In this document: positions 20,899 to 37,588 of the stretch, piece after piece
Layout: the number at the start of each line of letters is the position of its first letter
Numbering within the stretch: position 1 is the stretch's first letter
Source of the DNA: Gammaproteobacteria bacterium
Lineage (GTDB): Bacteria; Pseudomonadota; Gammaproteobacteria; Beggiatoales; Beggiatoaceae
NCBI GenBank assembly: GCA_003645255.1
Contig: QNES01000010.1
Location: forward strand, 1 to 48,085
Direction: 5' to 3'
DNA length: 48,085 bases
The notes under the pieces: generated by a model
The model's input: the letters and a program-made list of their open reading frames with translations, nothing else
What the model was told of the DNA's origin: nothing
The model's database searches: none
Made by a program: the position numbers and the translations under genes

Positions 20899-21360
20899 TC
20901 ATCCTGTATCAAAGCCAAATTGCCTCCAAGCCTCGTAGATAATCACAGCGACGGCATTAGATAAATTCAAACTACGATTACCTGTGTGCATGGGAATGCG
21001 TATCACTTGTTCAGGTGGATGTATATCCAGTAAAGTTGATGGTAGCCCCCGTGTTTCTGGACCAAATAAGAAGGTATCTTTAGCTTGATAATGGGGTTCA
21101 GTATAACAAGTTTTTCCTTTCGTTGAGCAGGCAAAACAACGTGATGGTTGCACGGTTTCCAAAAACGCTGAAAAAGATTCATATTCTTGGATACCTACCC
21201 ATTCGTGATAATCAAGTCCTGCTCGTTTGAGTTTTTTATTGTTTAATTCAAACCCAAGAGGGTGAATCAAATGTAATTGTACCCTGGTATTGGCACATAA
21301 GCGAATAATATTGCCTGTATTAGGTGGTATTTCTGGTTGGTAAAGAACGCAGTGAAACAT
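20899..21360 (-). CDS. trmL: tRNA (cytidine(34)-2'-O)-methyltransferase TrmL
   Basis: 153 residues, typical for TrmL. This SPOUT enzyme methylates the ribose of the wobble base in tRNA-Leu isoacceptors using SAM. Motif 1 is PPNTGNIIRLCANT, motif 2 DTFLFGPETRGLP, and motif 3 VIRIPMHTGNRSLNLSNAVA, forming the trefoil knot. It is a dimeric cytoplasmic enzyme. No Shine-Dalgarno sequence is seen before the ATG. The gene is divergent from the RpoC-like gene. Confidence 0.95.
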   Translation of the reverse strand: MFHCVLYQPEIPPNTGNIIRLCANTRVQLHLIHPLGFELNNKKLKRAGLDYHEWVGIQEYESFSAFLETVQPSRCFACSTKGKTCYTEPHYQAKDTFLFGPETRGLPSTLLDIHPPEQVIRIPMHTGNRSLNLSNAVAVIIYEAWRQFGFDTG

Positions 21361-21732: not shown

Positions 21733-21770
21733 ATTAACTGATTACTGATAACTGATTACTGATAACTGAT
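21733..21770. repeat. Tandem AACTGAT(AACTGATT) repeat abutting the RpoC-like start
   Basis: Units of AACTGATTACTGATAACTGA repeated in tandem end exactly at the base before the ATG at 21771. No purine-rich ribosome site remains. The same unit family occurs inside the gene at 23418-23451. Confidence 0.85.
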
Positions 21771-24700
21771 ATGGATGATTTATCGGAATTATTGAATACT
21801 CTGGCTTATATAAAAGATTTTAATAAAATTTGTATCAGTTTAGCTTCTCCAGAAAAAATTCGTTCTTGGTCCTATGGCGAAATAAAAACATCAGAAACTC
21901 TCAAGTACGGTACTTTTCAACCAGAAAATCACGGATTATTTTGTGCAAAAACGTTTGGCCCAATTAATAATTATGAATGCTTATGTGGTAAATATAAAAT
22001 GTTGACTTATCAGGGCATTGTTTGTGAAAAATGTGGTGTTGAAGTCACCTTAGCTAAAGTACGCCGTGAACGTATGGGACATATAGAACTGGCTGTCCCC
22101 ATTGTCCATATATGGTATTTCAAATCTTTACCCTCCCGTATCGGATTATTGTTAGATATGTCCTGGCGAGATTTAGAGCGTATTCTTTATTTTGATGCTT
22201 ATGTGGTTATTGAGCCTGGTTTGACGGATTTAAAACTGAAACAAATTTTATCTGAAAATGCGTATTTGGAAGCTCTGAAAATTTATGAACATGAATTTGA
22301 AGCACGAATGGGGGGTGAAGCGATTTATGAATTATTAAGTGCTCTGGATTTAGTCGTTTTAAAAAATAATTTATGTGAACAAATCAAAGATACCCATGCT
22401 AAAATCCATCAAAAAAAATTAAAAAAACGCTTAAAATTAGTAGAAGCCCTGTTGCAATCTCACACAAAACCCCAGTGGATGGTATTAACCGTTTTACCCG
22501 TATTGCCCCCCGACTTGCGCCCCTTAGTGCCGCTGGAAAATATTGAACGTTTTGCAAGCATTGATTTAAACAATTTATACAGGTGTGTGATTAATCGTAA
22601 TAATCGTACTAAACGTTTACTCAAATTAAAAGTGCCAGAACTAATCATTCGTAATGAATTGCGTTTGTTACAAAAAGCCGTGGATGCTTTGCTGGATAAT
22701 GCTAAACAACCCCGGGCTATCACTCGTAAAAATAAGCGACCGCTTCAATCATTATCAGATATGATAAAAGGAAAACAGGGTAGTTTTCGCCAAAATTTGC
22801 TTAACAAGCGAGTGGACTATTCAGGGCGTACCGTGATAATTGTAAAACCAAACTTAAAATGGTATCAATGTGGATTGCCCAAAGAAATGGCATTAGAATT
22901 ATTTAAACCCTTTCTATTTAATCTTATGCGACAACGTGGATTAGCAGCATCCATTCGGATAGCTAAAAGTTTAATTGAACAAAGAAAACCTGAAGTTTGG
23001 GAAATGCTTAAACAAGTGGTTCACGAGCATCCGATACTACTCAATCGTATACCCACTTTATCTCGTTTAAGTATTCAAGCATTTGAACCGATATTAATAG
23101 AAGGTAAAGCAATCCAATTACATCCCTTAGTGGCTCAAGCTTTTAAAGCCAGATTTGACGGAGAACAGATGACTGTTCATATACCCTTAACAATAGAGGC
23201 ACAACTTGAGTCGCGTGTTTTGATGATGTCTAACCATAATATCTTATCCCCGGTTAATGGAGAACCATCAAATGTGCCCTCGCAAGAAATGATTTTAGGA
23301 TTATATAATATGACATATCAACGTCCTGGTGCAAAAGGCGAAGGTATGGTGTTTGCTGATATTAACGAAGTACAACGTGCTTATGAAAATGAAGCTGTGG
23401 ATTTGCAAGCCTCCATTCAGTTATCAGTTATCAATTATCAGTTATCAGTGAATAGCTATTTAAAACAAAATCATCCCGAACAAACCTCTAATAGCACAGA
23501 AGCTCATCGGAAACGTGTGAAAACAACTGTGGGACGTGCTATATTATCACAATGTTTACCAAAGTTTTTACCTTTTGACTTAATTAATCGTCCTCTCACG
23601 AAAAAAAACCTTTTCAACTTAATAAAGACCGTTTTTCAGTATCTTAATCTAAATGAAAGCAATCATTTTGTTGATAAGCTCATGCAAGTTGGATTGACTT
23701 ATGCTACCCGCGCTGCTATTTCTTTAAACCTTGATGATTTCATTATAGCAGAACAAAAACCTAAACTTATTGAAGAAGCTAAAACTCAAATTGATGATAT
23801 CCAACAAAAATATCAAAAAAATCAAATAACTCAAAATCAACGTTATTACCAGATAATTCACACCTGGGCAAAAACAACAGATAAAATAACTCATGCAGCC
23901 TTGAATACATTATATCAAGCCGTTCAACCCACATTGTCATCTAAAACTCAAAAAGAATCAAAAGCACTCAAAAATAAGCGCAATGCCTTATCTATAATGA
24001 TAGAAGCAGGTGTGCAAAGTGCTAAAGAAATAGTTCAACTCACAGGAATGCGCGGATTAATAATTAAGCCAAATGGCTCAATTCTCGAAACACCTATTCT
24101 AGCTAATTATCGTGAGGGCTTAGATATACATCAGTATTTTCTTTCTACTCATAGTGCTCGTAAAAAAATAATTGATACAACAATTGAAATCGCCAATGCA
24201 AGTTACCTAACTCGGCGGTTAATTGAAGTGGCACAAGATATTATTATTACGGAAACTGATTGCGGTACCCAGCAAGGAATCACTTTAACAGCCATCACTA
24301 AAAAAGGGCAAATAATAAAACCATTAAGTGAACGCATACTTGGACGTGTGGTTGCAGAAGATATGTTTCAACCTGGCAAATGGTTTATCAAAGCCGGTAC
24401 TTTACTTGATGAAAAGGGGATAATATTTCTTGAAAATAAGAAAATCAAAAAAGTCAAAGTACGTTCCCCGGTGACTTGCCAATCTCAGTATGGCATTTGT
24501 GCAATGTGTTATGGGCGTGATTTAGCGAATCGAAAAAAGGTGAATATTGGAGAAGCTGTTGGGGTGATAGCGGCTCAGGCTATTGGTGAATCTTGTATTC
24601 AACTGATTAAACAAACGCCTGATGCCCAGGATATTGCCAAAAAAGTGGCGGCGATTAGTCATCTTGAAGCAACCTCCCAGAACGGGCTTGAATTTCATCA

Positions 24701-25448
24701 TGATAAACTCAACACACTTAACATCACAAGCTCTTTGCCCCGTCTAGCCAATTTATTTGAAGTGTCTATTCCTAAAGGAACAGCTATTTTAGCCTATCGT
24801 TCAGGCATTGCTCGTTTTATTCAAAGCACTCAAACTAAACATCGTTTTAGTATAATTGACAAAAATGGTCAATACGATGAATTTTCTATTTCTAAAAGGC
24901 GGAACATCAAAATTTCTGACGGTCAAGAAGTGCAATTGGGTGATGTCATTGTAGAAGGTGAAACGAATCCTCATGATATACTGTATCTAAAAGGTATCAA
25001 TGAATTAGCGAACTATTTTATCAATGAAATACAAGAAATTTATGAATACCATAATATTACAATTAATGACAAACATCTTGAAATTATCATTAGGCAAATG
25101 ACGTGTACCATGACGATTATTAATCCTGGCAATACCACGTTCTTAAAAGGCGATATTGTCACTCGCGCTAAATTAATAGAAGAAAATCAAATAATTAGCA
25201 AAAGAATGTCCCTAAAAAACCATATTGCAACTTGGAAACCCAACTTATTAGGGATTACTAAAGCATCATTATCTATAAAATCATTCCTATCTGCCGCATC
25301 CTTCATGGATACGAAGCGAATATTACTCAACAGTGCTATTAACAACCAATGTGATAAATTGCATGGAATCAAAGAAAATGTTATCACAGGGCGACTGATT
25401 CCAGCAGGAACTGGTTTTAAAAATATTAGTACAACGGATAGGGAATAG
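21771..25448 (+). CDS. Orphan RpoC (RNA polymerase beta') paralogue with degenerate active site
   Basis: 1225 residues, colinear with bacterial RpoC from first to last segment, yet not beside rpoB. Preserved: zinc ribbon CLCGKYK...CEKCG, clamp and VLPVLPPDLRPLVPL, KRVDYSGRTVI, bridge-helix region STHSARK..., second zinc site (DCGT, CQSQYGICAMC), and the C-terminal LLGITKASLS...GRLIPAGTGF. Lost: the universal NADFDGD loop reads KARFDGE, so the first Mg-binding Asp is R461 and the third is E465, leaving D463. The trigger-loop tip LTMRTFH reads LIKQTPD (K947-D951). The large lineage insertion usual after the trigger loop in gammaproteobacteria is absent, explaining the shorter length. NRAPTL reads NRIPTL. 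The frame is open for 3.7 kb, so it is maintained or recently decayed. As a polymerase it should be catalytically dead; a regulatory or decoy role is inference. Confidence 0.9.
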   Translation: MDDLSELLNTLAYIKDFNKICISLASPEKIRSWSYGEIKTSETLKYGTFQPENHGLFCAKTFGPINNYECLCGKYKMLTYQGIVCEKCGVEVTLAKVRRERMGHIELAVPIVHIWYFKSLPSRIGLLLDMSWRDLERILYFDAYVVIEPGLTDLKLKQILSENAYLEALKIYEHEFEARMGGEAIYELLSALDLVVLKNNLCEQIKDTHAKIHQKKLKKRLKLVEALLQSHTKPQWMVLTVLPVLPPDLRPLVPLENIERFASIDLNNLYRCVINRNNRTKRLLKLKVPELIIRNELRLLQKAVDALLDNAKQPRAITRKNKRPLQSLSDMIKGKQGSFRQNLLNKRVDYSGRTVIIVKPNLKWYQCGLPKEMALELFKPFLFNLMRQRGLAASIRIAKSLIEQRKPEVWEMLKQVVHEHPILLNRIPTLSRLSIQAFEPILIEGKAIQLHPLVAQAFKARFDGEQMTVHIPLTIEAQLESRVLMMSNHNILSPVNGEPSNVPSQEMILGLYNMTYQRPGAKGEGMVFADINEVQRAYENEAVDLQASIQLSVINYQLSVNSYLKQNHPEQTSNSTEAHRKRVKTTVGRAILSQCLPKFLPFDLINRPLTKKNLFNLIKTVFQYLNLNESNHFVDKLMQVGLTYATRAAISLNLDDFIIAEQKPKLIEEAKTQIDDIQQKYQKNQITQNQRYYQIIHTWAKTTDKITHAALNTLYQAVQPTLSSKTQKESKALKNKRNALSIMIEAGVQSAKEIVQLTGMRGLIIKPNGSILETPILANYREGLDIHQYFLSTHSARKKIIDTTIEIANASYLTRRLIEVAQDIIITETDCGTQQGITLTAITKKGQIIKPLSERILGRVVAEDMFQPGKWFIKAGTLLDEKGIIFLENKKIKKVKVRSPVTCQSQYGICAMCYGRDLANRKKVNIGEAVGVIAAQAIGESCIQLIKQTPDAQDIAKKVAAISHLEATSQNGLEFHHDKLNTLNITSSLPRLANLFEVSIPKGTAILAYRSGIARFIQSTQTKHRFSIIDKNGQYDEFSISKRRNIKISDGQEVQLGDVIVEGETNPHDILYLKGINELANYFINEIQEIYEYHNITINDKHLEIIIRQMTCTMTIINPGNTTFLKGDIVTRAKLIEENQIISKRMSLKNHIATWKPNLLGITKASLSIKSFLSAASFMDTKRILLNSAINNQCDKLHGIKENVITGRLIPAGTGFKNISTTDRE
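23418..23451. repeat. CAGTTATCAGTTAT repeat within the RpoC-like gene
   Basis: CAGTTATCAGTTATCAATTA continues with TCAGTTATCAGTGA. It is in frame and encodes QLSVINYQLSV at about residues 550-560, in a stretch that aligns with a variable surface region of RpoC. It is the same family as the copies at 12225, 12811 and 21733. Confidence 0.85.
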
Positions 25449-32337: not shown

Positions 32338-33768
32338 ATGCGCGTACTTTTCGTCACTTCTGAAGCCTATCCCCTGGTTAAAACAGGTGGTTTAGGCGAT
32401 GTGAGTTATGCCCTGCCTAACGCTTTGCGACAATTAGGCATTGATGTTCGTTTATTAATACCTGGTTATCCAGAAGTACTCAAACAACTTTCGCTGATTG
32501 AGGTGCATGAAAATATTCGGTTATATCCTTTAGATGAACCTATACATTTATTAGCCGGGATAATGCCGGGTGAAATCACCCCGGTTTATGTGATTAAATG
32601 TCCCAGTTTATATGAACGCGACGGTGGACCTTATCAAGATACGGAAGGAAAAGATTGGGTAGATAATGCCTTACGTTTTGGAATACTATCTAAAGTGGCA
32701 GCTTTATTTGGTCATCATCAGCTACTTTTTAAACCACAAATTGTCCATTGCAATGATTGGCAAACAGGTTTAGTGCCAGCTTTATTAACTTTTCATCCTA
32801 ATCCAAACACGCGAACTGTGATGAGCGTCCATAATATGGCTTATCAAGGTCTTTTTGGTTCCGAATTGATAGATGAATTTGGTTTGCCGCCCGAAAGTTT
32901 TAGTCTATCCGGATTAGAATATTATGGAAAAGTTTCATTTCTCAAAGCCGGATTATCTTACAGCGATTGGATAACAACAGTCAGCCCCAATTATGCCAAA
33001 GACATTCAAACGCCAGCTTATGGTTGTGGTTTAGAAGGGCTATTGACACAACGCCAAACTCACTTAACCGGCATATTAAATGGTATTGATACAAAAGTTT
33101 GGAATCCAGAAACTGATCAGCATTTAAGTCGTCATTACACCATTAAAAGTTTAGCCGCCAAAGCCCGTAATACTCAAGCTTTGCGTAGCCAATTCAAGTT
33201 AGCATCTTCAAAACAAATTCCACTGATTGGTATCATTGCTCGCCTTATTGACCAAAAAGGCATAGATTTAGTCGTACCCATCATCCCAGATATTATCAAA
33301 GCCGGCGCACAACTCGTCATACTCGGTAGTGGCGATAAAAATTTAGAACTAAGTTTATTACAATTGGCAAAACATTACCCAAAACAACTCAGTGTTACAT
33401 TGGGATATGATGAAAAACTAGCTCATCAAATTGAAGCCGGGGCAAATATGTTTCTGATGCCCTCCAGATTTGAACCTTGCGGTTTAAACCAAATGTACAG
33501 TATGTATTATGGTACAATACCTATAGTCAGGCGCACCGGCGGATTAGCAGACACGGTAGTAGATGCGAGTTCCGAGCATATCCAAAATAAAACGGCTACC
33601 GGCTTTGTGTTTGAAAATTCGGATGAATTATTTTCCTGTATACAACGTGCTTTGCAAATTTTCCGTCATAAAAAAATATGGCAACAATTACAAATCACGG
33701 GCATGAGTCGTGATTTTAGCTGGCAGAAAAGTGCCAGGCAGTATATATCATTGTATCATCAATTGTAG
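32338..33768 (+). CDS. glgA: Glycogen synthase (ADP-glucose), GT5
   Basis: 476 residues, the bacterial GlgA length (E. coli 477). It transfers glucose from ADP-glucose to the growing alpha-1,4-glucan. The N-terminal EAYPLVKTGGLGDVSYALP contains the KTGGL nucleotide-sugar motif; VHCNDWQTGLVPALL and SVHNMAYQG are typical of the N-terminal Rossmann domain. The C-terminal domain has ARLIDQKGIDLV and the catalytic SRFEPCGLNQMYSMYYG with the E in EPCG, then RRTGGLADTV. It is cytoplasmic. Other glycogen genes are not in the window. The start lies against a repeat. Confidence 0.97.
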   Translation: MRVLFVTSEAYPLVKTGGLGDVSYALPNALRQLGIDVRLLIPGYPEVLKQLSLIEVHENIRLYPLDEPIHLLAGIMPGEITPVYVIKCPSLYERDGGPYQDTEGKDWVDNALRFGILSKVAALFGHHQLLFKPQIVHCNDWQTGLVPALLTFHPNPNTRTVMSVHNMAYQGLFGSELIDEFGLPPESFSLSGLEYYGKVSFLKAGLSYSDWITTVSPNYAKDIQTPAYGCGLEGLLTQRQTHLTGILNGIDTKVWNPETDQHLSRHYTIKSLAAKARNTQALRSQFKLASSKQIPLIGIIARLIDQKGIDLVVPIIPDIIKAGAQLVILGSGDKNLELSLLQLAKHYPKQLSVTLGYDEKLAHQIEAGANMFLMPSRFEPCGLNQMYSMYYGTIPIVRRTGGLADTVVDASSEHIQNKTATGFVFENSDELFSCIQRALQIFRHKKIWQQLQITGMSRDFSWQKSARQYISLYHQL

Positions 33769-33815: not shown

Positions 33816-34994
33816 ATGGTGATTGATAGCATTCCGCTCCTCATACCCGATTTACCTAGCACAAAACAATTGCTACCTTGGTTGCAGCGTATTGAGCATA
33901 ATAAATGGTATACCAATTTTGGTCCCTTGGTCCAAGAATTTGAATCTAAACTAGTCCAATTATTCACACAATGGAATCATGGGAATTATTATTTAACCAC
34001 CGTCAGTTCCGGCACGGATGCCCTTGAATTAGCATTGCTTGCCCTTAATATCCCAGAAAAACGCAGGGCATTATTGCCAGCATTTACCTTTCCAGCCACT
34101 GCTACTGCCATCAAACAATGTGGCTTACAACCTGTTTTTACTGACGTTGAACCAAGTTCCTGGTTATTGACACCTGCCATTGCCCGTCAAGTGCTAAAAA
34201 AAATGGCGTTTGATGTCGTTCTACCCGTCGCCACTTTCGGCTACCCACAACCGGTGGATGAATGGGATAAATTTCAGGAAGAAACCGGTATTCCAGTCTT
34301 GATAGATGCAGCGGCGGCTTTTGGCACTCAACCCCTTGGAGAACGCTGTATCATCACCTTCAGTTTTCACGCTACCAAGCCCTTTGGCATTGGCGAAGGG
34401 GGTTTAGTCGTGGCAAACTCTGCTGACTTTATTCATCAAGTCAACAAATTGAGTAACTTTGGTTTTGACTGTGGTATAATAAGCCAATCTGGTAGCAATG
34501 CCAAATTAAGTGAATATCATGCTGCGGTCGCACTGGCTCAATTAGAGCGTTGGCATCAAATCATTAAACGGCGCAAAAAAATCTGGGAGATTTATCGCCA
34601 CTATTTGGGTGCCATGGGAAATAAAATCAGTTTACAGGAGACACCTGACGATCCGGTGCCAGCCACTTTGTCTATTAAATTAAATGATATTGGGAATAAT
34701 TTATCTCAATTGGTAAAACAACTAGCCAAAAAAGGCATTCAAACCCGTCGTTGGTATTATCCACCCTTATCCGAGCATCCGGCGTTTAGGGATATACAAC
34801 GAGTGGCACCGGATGGAGGGGATTGTTTAGGGGTAACAAAAGAATTATCGATGAGTTTACTGGGCTTACCGTTTCATACTGATCTTAATGAGGAGATGAT
34901 AGATTATATTTGTTGTCACTTGTTATATTCAAAAAATCATTCCCAATTCCCAATGGCTTCGGAACAAAGTTTTCCCATTACACAAAATGATTAA
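33816..34994 (+). CDS. DegT/DnrJ/EryC1-family PLP aminotransferase
   Basis: 392 residues. Family members usually aminate keto-sugars for surface polysaccharides, or act on other ketones. Seen: GPLVQEFESKL entry helix, TVSSGTDALELAL cofactor loop, LLPAFTFPATATAI, and the Schiff-base lysine K188 in FSFHATKPFGIGEGG, with FGFD after it. The ribosome site GTGAGG is good. The last ~20 residues (after YSKNHSQFPMASEQSF) are encoded partly by a CATTCCCAATTCCCAAT repeat, so the natural C-terminus has been extended or replaced. The stop overlaps the start of the next gene by eight bases, so the two are coupled. The absence of other sugar-nucleotide genes leaves its substrate open. Confidence 0.9.
   Translation: MVIDSIPLLIPDLPSTKQLLPWLQRIEHNKWYTNFGPLVQEFESKLVQLFTQWNHGNYYLTTVSSGTDALELALLALNIPEKRRALLPAFTFPATATAIKQCGLQPVFTDVEPSSWLLTPAIARQVLKKMAFDVVLPVATFGYPQPVDEWDKFQEETGIPVLIDAAAAFGTQPLGERCIITFSFHATKPFGIGEGGLVVANSADFIHQVNKLSNFGFDCGIISQSGSNAKLSEYHAAVALAQLERWHQIIKRRKKIWEIYRHYLGAMGNKISLQETPDDPVPATLSIKLNDIGNNLSQLVKQLAKKGIQTRRWYYPPLSEHPAFRDIQRVAPDGGDCLGVTKELSMSLLGLPFHTDLNEEMIDYICCHLLYSKNHSQFPMASEQSFPITQND
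34938..34954. repeat. CATTCCCAATTCCCAAT repeat in the aminotransferase 3' end
   Basis: Same unit as the one before glgA, here read in frame as HSQFPM. Confidence 0.7.
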
Positions 34995-35674: not shown

Positions 35675-37588
35675 ATGACTACAAATCAACAAACTGAAAA
35701 AAACACTGATAAGAGTGCCAAACCTATCAATATCAGAGACATAGAAAGACTTGTCCTTCAGCAAAATTTTGAGGAAGCAAGTGCCTTGATAATAAAGCTT
35801 TTAGTCAGTGCCGAACGAAAAGGCGGTGTGGTGCTGGATGGGAAAAGCGATTTAGAGCATGATTTTTTAAGTGAATACACTCGTTTAGCCAGTGCGATGA
35901 CTGCCTTTTTTGCTCATCCTAAGATGGTTTTATTCTTTGATGGGTTCACAATCTTTGCCACTTATAAGAAACATTTGTTAGGCATTTTTCAATTGAGCGG
36001 TTTTAGAGGTACTGATCATTTATTGGCTTTAATTGGGAATCAAGAAGGGAAAGGAGATCAATTTTCCGTTCAAGGTGAGCAACAGATGATGAAATTTTTG
36101 TTATTCTACTCTTTTGATTCAGAAGTAGACATTGACTTTGCACACTTATTAAAAAATATTCCTAAGCTTGCCATGCCGGTTTATCTCTCATTGGTAGGAG
36201 AAGAATGTCTATTGACTCATTCTGCTTGTCAAAGACGTGACAAACTGTTAGAAGTGGGTCCCCTATTAGAAGAGATGCCTTTAGAGGATAAGCAGTTAAC
36301 CCGTTTGTCCAATCTCTGGATGTTTTGCAGCTACAGTGAAAGCAAAACGAAACATGACATCAAGGCACATCTCAATGTTGTGCTGCGAAAATTCATGGAG
36401 AAACAGGGCGTAAATGTACCGGCTTTACCAGCACAGCGCAGGAAAAAAGATCGCCCGGTGATATTGATTCCATCAGAACGGTTTACCGCAAGCCATGCGA
36501 TGTATCGTTGCTATGCGCCCGCTATTCAACAATTGCGTGAAAAATTCGAGTTGGTATTCATGTCAGAAACCCACCGCATGGATGACATCAGTAAAACCCT
36601 ATTCGACAAAGTGATTGAGGTTGATTTTGGCAAGATGCCCCCTAAAAAGTTAGTCGGAAAAGTGCTTAAACTGAAACCCGATATGATTTATTTTCCCAGT
36701 CTGGGCATGTCACAATGGACATTACTGTTAGCTAATTTACGCCTTGCGCCTATTCAGTTTATGACTTTGGGGCATCCGGCGACTAGCCATTCTCCTTTTA
36801 TAGATTACATTTTGATGGTAGAGGTGAATTATTCCCCTAATGTTGACTGCTTTAGCGAAAAAGTGGTGTTATTGGATACCGCCAATTTTCATCAAATGAT
36901 AGCCCCAGCGGGTGCTGTTGCCATTCCGCCTGATATACGGAAAAATCCTTCCGCCGTGCGGCTTGCCATCACAAGTACGAGTTTTAAACTCAATGCTTCT
37001 TTTATGGCAGTCTGCCAACGAATCTGGCAAAACAGTCAAAAACCAGTGGAATTTCACTTCTTTCCTTCTGAGAAAGGCATGTCTTACCAAAAGGTGAAAC
37101 AACGTATTCTAGAATGGATACCGGAAGCTAAAGTTTATCCAGGGGCTAACTATAATATATATATTGCTAATTTGAATGCTTGTGATATTCATTTAAGTCC
37201 TTTTCCTTTTGGGGGAACTAATAGCAATGTTGATTCCATGCAGCACGGTATTCCGATTGTCACATTAGAGGGAGATGAACCTCATGCTCGTACTGATTTG
37301 CCTTTTTTTGAAATGAGTAATCTACCAAAATGGTTGTGGACACATAGTGAAGATGAATATGTGGAAGCGGCATTGCGATTGGTTCATCATGATGAAGAAC
37401 GTGTTGCTATCGGCGAAGCTTTGCTGGCTCAAGATTTTGAAAGTATTCTCAGGGATCATGAATTTTGTCACCATGAAAAAGTGTTTGGTAAAACAGTAGA
37501 ATGGTTATACCAACATCATGAGGCTATCCAAAAGGATGGTAGGAAAGTGTGGGACGTGGAAGCACAAAAACTTCTGTTGCCAACTTAA
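35675..37588 (+). CDS. HMW1C-type cytoplasmic N-glycosyltransferase (GT41-like)
   Basis: 637 residues, like Actinobacillus NGT (about 620). HMW1C/NGT enzymes attach glucose to Asn in NxS/T sequons of proteins, usually adhesins, in the cytoplasm. An N-terminal all-helical domain (~1-250) is followed by a GT-B domain: FTASHAMYRCY, APIQFMTLGHPATSHSPFIDY, STSFKLNASF (matching the TTMKLNP lysine region of NGT), and NACDIHLSPFPFGGTNSNVD, where the N....D pair corresponds to UDP-binding Asn/Asp of NGT. The usual HST after the YR motif is YAP here, so the acceptor or sugar may differ. No adhesin gene is adjacent; the secreted 908-residue protein lies 1.4 kb downstream. No strong ribosome site. Confidence 0.85.
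   Translation: MTTNQQTEKNTDKSAKPINIRDIERLVLQQNFEEASALIIKLLVSAERKGGVVLDGKSDLEHDFLSEYTRLASAMTAFFAHPKMVLFFDGFTIFATYKKHLLGIFQLSGFRGTDHLLALIGNQEGKGDQFSVQGEQQMMKFLLFYSFDSEVDIDFAHLLKNIPKLAMPVYLSLVGEECLLTHSACQRRDKLLEVGPLLEEMPLEDKQLTRLSNLWMFCSYSESKTKHDIKAHLNVVLRKFMEKQGVNVPALPAQRRKKDRPVILIPSERFTASHAMYRCYAPAIQQLREKFELVFMSETHRMDDISKTLFDKVIEVDFGKMPPKKLVGKVLKLKPDMIYFPSLGMSQWTLLLANLRLAPIQFMTLGHPATSHSPFIDYILMVEVNYSPNVDCFSEKVVLLDTANFHQMIAPAGAVAIPPDIRKNPSAVRLAITSTSFKLNASFMAVCQRIWQNSQKPVEFHFFPSEKGMSYQKVKQRILEWIPEAKVYPGANYNIYIANLNACDIHLSPFPFGGTNSNVDSMQHGIPIVTLEGDEPHARTDLPFFEMSNLPKWLWTHSEDEYVEAALRLVHHDEERVAIGEALLAQDFESILRDHEFCHHEKVFGKTVEWLYQHHEAIQKDGRKVWDVEAQKLLLPT

Follow-up and report, generated by a model that had tools for sequence, protein, structure and literature searches.

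An RNA polymerase beta' paralogue family without the first catalytic aspartate in Beggiatoaceae: a possible natural brake on transcription

Here, we describe a gene for a beta'-like subunit of RNA polymerase that appears to have lost the chemistry of transcription and to have kept most of the parts with which beta' binds its partners. It lies on a contig of 48,085 nucleotides (GenBank assembly GCA_003645255.1, contig QNES01000010.1; C10 in our numbering) from a Gammaproteobacteria bacterium of the family Beggiatoaceae. The entire contig was analyzed and is called the window below; the assembly, labeled G000, comprises 4.41 Mb in 313 contigs. The gene, and the idea that it could act as a negative regulator, have been known since 2015 (MacGregor 2015, PMC4679880). 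On the other hand, a conserved family of such genes, of single origin and under selection, is new to the searchable literature and makes the 2015 speculation testable. Judging from the sequences, the likeliest reading, at even odds for and against, is that the paralogue assembles with normal beta into a dead polymerase that binds sigma and DNA, and so acts as a natural dominant-negative brake.

An RpoC paralogue with an altered active site

The open reading frame (ORF) at 21771–25448 on the plus strand has 1225 codons and zero internal stops. Five Pfam Rpb1 domains span the protein, its score against NCBIfam TIGR02386 is 1406.9 bits (cut-off 963.5), and 8 of the 8 cysteines of the two zinc sites are present, in agreement with the end-to-end RpoC architecture claimed by an earlier, sequence-only reading of the window. 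Alignment to E. coli beta', which also supplies the numbering used here, confirmed two substitutions that this reading had pointed out: KARFDGE replaces the catalytic NADFDGD, and the trigger-loop tip reads KQTPD instead of MRTFH. SI3, reported by the same reading as missing after the trigger loop, is indeed gone, with 1 of 38 near-invariant SI3 positions retained. The paralogue therefore shares with canonical RpoC (TIGR02386) the whole architecture, the zinc sites, the clamp helices, the switches and the C-terminus, but it is without the Asp triad, the normal trigger-loop tip and SI3, and it does not stand beside rpoB. The sole rpoB found in G000 is on contig C42, apart from both the paralogue and rpoC, and the start of the paralogue is preceded by short repeats, as had been noticed. 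A search for the canonical rpoC recovered one on contig C117 that is intact (NADFDGD, MRTFH) and shares 56% identity with the paralogue; the latter is thus not the only rpoC of the genome.

The same aspartate is missing from every paralogue that we found in the family. In the alignment, none of the 14 paralogues has D460, the first Asp of the loop; seven different residues occupy its position (Arg in 2, Leu in 1, Gln in 2, Asn in 5, Lys in 1, Ser in 1, His in 2), whereas D460 is present in 30 of 30 canonical rows and in 5 of 5 rows from outside the family. The residue in the G009 copy is uncertain because the catalytic loop itself is shortened there. Since the first Asp is lost in all 14 paralogues, from 7 genera, and kept in all 30 canonical proteins, assembly error is excluded as its cause; contamination is likewise ruled out, as the loss is common to 14 genomes and synteny at the locus extends across genera. 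In the trigger loop, F935 is lost in all 13 readable paralogues, and H936 is lost in 9 of these 13 and kept in 4.

The roles that we assign to individual beta' positions (sigma, switch, zinc, catalysis) and the boundaries of the regions are those that we take to hold for beta' in general. Seven of the 16 tabulated clamp-helix positions (N266, R275, R278, N294, E295, R297, Q300) are identical in 14 of 14 paralogues, and so are four of the five tabulated positions of switch 2 (K334, R339, R346, R352). R259 is likewise kept in 14 of 14, R780 and R798 in 13 of 13, and the zinc sites are intact in all readable copies (12 of 12 for site 1, 13 of 13 for site 2). Over the 692 positions that are near-invariant in 35 normal RpoC rows, the paralogues retain 92% of switch 2, 97% of 1301–1325, 99% of 876–900 and 83% of the clamp helices. 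The eroded regions are the trigger-loop tip (926–950, 43%), 676–700 (46%), 701–725 (42%), the F-loop (53%) and SI3 (51%), and the rim also belongs to the eroded parts. By this alignment, the most eroded parts are presumably those of the chemistry and the substrate channel, and the least eroded are the sigma, DNA, zinc and C-terminal parts, although the contrast is imperfect, with the lid at 74%. The earlier suggestion of a beta' with conserved structure and lost catalysis, with most binding parts retained, is well supported.

Distribution, origin and selection

How widespread is the gene, and how old? The family set consisted of 42 genomes from 25 genera, and the order comprises the same 42. 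The paralogue was present in 14 of these genomes and in 7 of the genera: G000, G001 and G002 (the window's genus), G003, G027, G009, G013, G030, G018, G019, G033, G061, G024 and G035. This count is a lower bound, as several assemblies are incomplete and 6 of the 42 genomes were searched with the N-terminal RpoC domain only. Nine paralogues are single open frames within a contig (that of G009 shortened to 1015 codons), four reach a contig end (G013, G024, G030, G035) and one, in G019, is frame-broken. The matches in G001 and G002 were flagged "1 TAA", yet both frames (1209 and 1208 codons) are uninterrupted and terminate close to the C-terminus of the window protein. A separate 107-residue piece on contig C304 of G024 was left uncounted as an extra gene. 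For the canonical protein of G030, the piece L046 (NADFDGDQMAV) was used and the C-terminal piece L047 (contig C234) was left out of the counts; the latter reads NAEFDGHQIV at a contig end, which is probably contig-end noise.

A tree was built from 49 RpoC proteins, namely 30 canonical and 14 paralogous proteins of the family and 5 from outside, including E. coli (LG+C20 with posterior mean site frequencies, PMSF, quick search). A single branch, with a Shimodaira–Hasegawa-like approximate likelihood ratio (SH-aLRT) support of 100, separates all 14 paralogues from the other proteins, and the group is joined to the canonical genes from one sub-clade within the family (SH-aLRT 88 for this join). 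Some paralogue branches are long (G009 3.4, G018 1.5, G000 0.9), and because several are, the inner order of the paralogues is unsure. The approximately unbiased (AU) test rejected a duplication confined to the window's genus (p-AU 1.4e-87, log-likelihood 326 worse), for a group that was defined after the tree had been seen. Across the 12 genomes for which both genes were in the set, distances in separate trees of the paralogues and the canonical genes are correlated (Spearman 0.60, a value reached in 10 of 5000 permutations). The tree, the correlated distances and the gene neighbors shared between genera point to one old duplication that was inherited vertically and lost in some lineages and that, by this sequence comparison, is older than the split between the 7 carrier genera.

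We next consider selection, estimated as the ratio of nonsynonymous to synonymous changes (dN/dS) by the Nei–Gojobori method on close pairs. For the paralogue, dN/dS was 0.24 (G001/G002), 0.08 (G003/G027), 0.22 (G035/G024) and 0.13 (G013/G030, over 328 codons), and it was 0.24 for the more distant pair G000/G001, at a dS near 1. For canonical rpoC, the values were 0.13 (G001/G002), 0.02 (G003/G027) and 0.09 (G000/G001), so that the paralogue ratio is 1.8, 3.2 and 2.7 times that of rpoC in the three pairs with both genes. In windows of 150 codons (G001/G002 and G003/G027), dN/dS was lowest in codons 1–450 and 751–900 and reached a maximum of 0.43. These ratios indicate that the paralogue is under purifying selection, relaxed 1.8- to 3.2-fold compared with rpoC, and is not pseudogene-like. 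The sequence-only reading had offered a "recently relaxed duplicate" as an alternative, of which the relaxed part stands and the recent part does not; neutral evolution, which it had also raised, does not agree with ratios of 0.08–0.24 in four close pairs.

Could the paralogue nevertheless be a slowly decaying duplicate without present function? Its long branches and relaxed rates would fit such a history, as would the frame-broken copy in G019 (where the neighboring kinase gene is broken too) and the 28 of 42 genomes in which no paralogue was found, 4 of them without any RpoC match. However, three observations argue against decay, which we judge quite unlikely: dN/dS is far below 1 in each of the four close pairs, old lineages have open frames of more than 1000 codons, and the constraint is patterned by function.

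A search with PF04563 found one rpoB gene each in 38 of the 42 genomes, including 13 of the 14 carriers, and no match in G006, G013 (a carrier), G060 and G062. Five genomes (G008, G012, G016, G020, G023) gave two PF04563 matches, each pair on the same contig and within one frame length. A private beta partner for the paralogue was considered and set aside, as no second rpoB gene was seen in the 38 genomes with a match.

Several canonical subunits in the family are unusually built. The RpoB of G000 (C42, 12037–17127, plus strand) has 1696 amino acids, with a repetitive insertion of 310 amino acids after E. coli beta position 1133; the equivalent insertion has 221 amino acids in G001 and 404 in G008. 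An intein was rejected as an explanation, as the Pfam matches of the G000 protein contain no intein domain and the insertion is repetitive. The canonical RpoC frames of G012 (L049, 6761–11695), G008 (L050) and G023 (L051) are long (1645, 1666 and 1503 codons), with the extra length mostly between about 714 and 738 in window-protein residues. In G018, four short fragments (L061–L064, on contigs C400, C297, C139 and C87) are 60–97% identical to pieces of the canonical G018 RpoC. They were rejected as further paralogue pieces, and left uncounted, as they score best against that protein rather than against the three paralogues compared; they may be shuffled gene pieces or an artifact of amplification or assembly.

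Beyond the family, PF04997 was counted in a class sample of 370 genomes (5 from the family), 340 of which had a match. Eight genomes had two matches: G000, G118, G227, G318 and the four that were examined further (G184, G317, G116, G403). G317 was rejected as a carrier of a dead RpoC because both copies have an intact NADFDGD, and G116 and G403 were rejected as two-copy genomes because each has one gene in two pieces ending at contig ends. G184 encodes a stand-alone beta' N-terminal fragment of 388 amino acids (C137, 441–1607, plus strand; L110/L114) with the zinc site, clamp and clamp helices and no catalytic half. It shares 44% identity with the intact RpoC of G184, occurs in 1 of 3 genomes of another family of the same class, and may be an independent dead beta' remnant or a sigma decoy.

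Gene neighborhood and the earlier description

The features of the window are collected in Table 1. The order downstream is paralogue, hybrid sensor kinase, two ORFs (114 and 225 amino acids) and glgA.

Table 1. Positions of the rpoC paralogue, its sequence features and its neighbors in the window
Feature	Position	Strand	Basis or remark
SpoU-family RNA methylase	20899..21360	-	divergent upstream neighbor
Repeat of alternating units, TAACTGA first and last (3 TAACTGA + 2 TTACTGA)	21735..21769	+	one base 5' of start ATG
rpoC paralogue (putative catalytically dead beta'-like protein, 1225 amino acids)	21771..25448	+	ORF without internal stop, domains, family score, alignment
Catalytic-loop remnant KARFDGE, replaces NADFDGD	23145..23165 (residues 459-465)	+	aligned to E. 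coli 458-464
Three TCAGTTA units (reverse TAACTGA) in the ORF	23417..23444	+	encode QLSVINYQLS
Trigger-loop tip KQTPD, replaces MRTFH; no SI3 after tip	24609..24623 (residues 947-951)	+	alignment
Hybrid sensor kinase, 1645 amino acids	25618..30555	+	PAS repeats, HisKA, HATPase, three REC, Hpt; syntenic partner
glgA-type glycogen/starch synthase	32338..33768	+	Pfam Glyco_transf_5
DegT-type aminotransferase	33816..34994		near the 637-amino-acid protein
637-amino-acid protein, weak HMW1C-type glycosyltransferase domains	35675..37588	+	downstream of glgA

A same-strand hybrid kinase gene directly follows the paralogue in 6 of the 14 carriers (G000, G001, G003, G027, G019, G033), that of G019 being frame-broken like its paralogue. 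In G002, the contig ends past the paralogue and the kinase opens another contig; in G061, the kinase is on a different contig and other ORFs follow the paralogue; and in G009 and G030, the contig ends at the paralogue or nearby. When at most 12 candidates per genome were scored (E up to 1e-200), kinase matches of at least 60% identity over at least 1000 residues were found in 8 of the 42 genomes, all 8 of them carriers, and no qualifying match was found among the candidates of the other 6 carriers. Two non-carriers came close (G026, 58% over 1060 residues; G059, 63% over 985). The link with the kinase is thus one of co-occurrence and is not universal. In four other carriers (G013, G018, G024, G035), glgA directly follows the paralogue. 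The gene for the SpoU methylase, which we take to be TrmL, lies divergently upstream in G000, G001 and G002 and about 3 kb off in G019.

This neighborhood raises the question of whether the paralogue has been repurposed outside transcription initiation, perhaps to serve hybrid kinase signaling or glycogen metabolism as a scaffold that binds RNA or DNA. The adjacent kinase in six genomes and glgA in four others would suit such a role, as would the restriction of the kinase matches to carriers. However, the neighbors vary by lineage, six carriers gave no such match among the candidates scored, and the polymerase-specific regions are conserved, and we regard a scaffold as distinctly improbable.

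By its description, the window gene is ORF 00100_0018 of the draft genome of Cand. Maribeggiatoa orange Guaymas (BOGUAY), reported as a putative alternate beta' (PMC4679880); the match rests on the repeats, the LSVINYQLS peptide and the context. In that report, as in the window, three TAACTGA units interleaved with two TTACTGA units precede the start, three reverse units inside the gene encode LSVINYQLS, the D-D-D motif is incomplete, the SI3 region is altered, a hybrid sensor kinase (domains PAS, HK, three REC, Hpt) is encoded directly after the gene, and the genes for normal beta and beta' are internal to separate contigs. The published kinase also has a GAF domain, whereas the Pfam scan of the window kinase found none. 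The loop that contains QLSVINYQLS differs in length among the paralogues compared here.

The report further mentions a similar ORF in Thioploca ingrica (THII_0330) and "in no others", and proposes, as speculation, a role as a negative transcriptional regulator, with a functional complex also left possible. Compared with those two species, the present analysis finds carriers in 14 of 42 genomes and adds a phylogeny, estimates of selection, the constraint on single residues and the glgA synteny; the words glycogen, starch and glgA are absent from the main text of PMC4679880. No later publication on the paralogue was found in the open-license PMC literature, and a term search of the available text of PMC4853749, PMC5728499, PMC4914600 and PMC5108060 found no mention of a second rpoC. 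The 2015 report uses the group name Beggiatoaceae, and NCBI taxonomy places Cand. Parabeggiatoa and Thioploca in Thiotrichaceae.

A putative dead polymerase and its alternatives

Could a beta' without its chemistry serve as a brake on transcription? A dead beta' would compete with the normal beta' for the single beta found, as well as for alpha and omega. The resulting pseudo-polymerase would bind sigma and DNA but could neither hold the catalytic Mg nor make RNA, and its occupation of promoters, together with the tying-up of beta and sigma, would slow transcription. The dead subunit would probably be made or used under conditions sensed by the neighboring regulators. We infer the assembly with beta, the promoter binding, the negative effect, its trigger and the link to the kinase. 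With D460 lost, the sigma and DNA parts mostly kept and no private beta seen, the simplest reading is that a naturally dead polymerase draws on the same beta, alpha and omega as the live one.

An engineered counterpart exists. According to PMC5730371, the E. coli beta'D460A subunit was made together with wild-type beta' in living cells and used there to assemble and trap promoter open complexes, and the purified enzyme stays trapped in vitro with or without substrates. It resembles the paralogues in that the same residue is lost, and it is inactive, trapped at promoters and works beside the wild type. On the other hand, it is a laboratory point mutant, whereas the paralogue family is natural and carries many further changes.

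Several observations weigh against a dead polymerase that functions as a brake. The paralogue evolves faster than rpoC, as described above, and seems dispensable, since none was found in 28 of the 42 genomes. D462 and D464 are both retained in 5 of the 14 paralogues (G019, G024, G033, G035, G061), so that weak or altered activity is possible in these. Some presumed binding residues have changed: I290 is altered in 14 of 14 and R293 in 3 of 14 (clamp helices), R337 (switch 2) and R311 are lost in the window copy and in G009, and K789 is altered in 3 of 13. The G009 copy has lost two central stretches and the catalytic loop. Retention is only 53% in 1226–1250 and 64% in 376–400, which are non-catalytic regions, and the catalytic-loop region as a whole retains 78%. 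An AlphaFold single-subunit model of residues 1–1190 had a mean predicted local distance difference test score (pLDDT) of 48.9 and a predicted template modeling score (pTM) of 0.33 and was discarded. Moreover, PMC4853749 reports two rpoB copies in the single-cell genome of Ca. Thiomargarita nelsonii Bud S10, and a second beta is therefore possible in some members.

Sequestration could also work without promoter binding: the paralogue would soak up sigma (or beta or omega) off the DNA, as a decoy or a storage form. The seven unchanged clamp-helix positions and both zinc sites would be expected of such a protein, and the fragment in G184, from another family, is a stand-alone beta' N-terminal piece. 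However, the DNA-side residues are retained as well (K334, R339, R346, R352 and R259 in 14 of 14, R780 and R798 in 13 of 13, with R337 and R311 lost in two), and purifying selection extends to the C-terminal half. Because sequestration of sigma alone needs no such selection on the C-terminal half, it is disfavored, and we hold it to be unlikely.

Alternatively, the paralogue could form a polymerase that is still active in an altered way, with the metal site rebuilt or with just cleavage or other chemistry left. The five copies with D462 and D464 and the four of 13 readable copies with H936 would allow this, and a functional complex was left possible by MacGregor (2015; PMC4679880). Against it, seven kinds of residue, with Arg, Lys and Leu among them, have taken the place of the first Asp, the trigger loop is shortened or destroyed in the window's genus, the catalytic loop of G009 is deleted, and E. 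coli beta'D460A serves as an inactivated enzyme (PMC5730371). We consider an altered activity very improbable, so that the rivals rank, from the most to the least likely, as sigma sequestration, slow decay, a non-polymerase scaffold and altered residual chemistry.

The dead polymerase may also be read more broadly. The whole lineage would have kept it, from before the genera split, as a dedicated global regulator, with a pseudo-enzyme subunit that forms dead holoenzymes at promoters and that a phosphorelay inherited along with it controls in several of the genera; we put this forward tentatively, as a doubtful extension. The 2015 report covered two species and offered no test to decide whether the gene is a regulator or a decaying duplicate. 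Its single origin, the universal loss of the Asp, the purifying selection and the retained sigma and DNA residues give the dead-polymerase hypothesis a concrete form, testable with chimeric subunits in E. coli.

Among kinases, pseudo-enzymes are well known as regulators of their active relatives. For a cellular RNA polymerase, we know of no established idea of a conserved dead catalytic subunit and of no earlier natural dominant-negative one. If the dead-polymerase hypothesis is true, the paralogue would be, to our knowledge, the first dominant-negative form of such a subunit to be found in nature.

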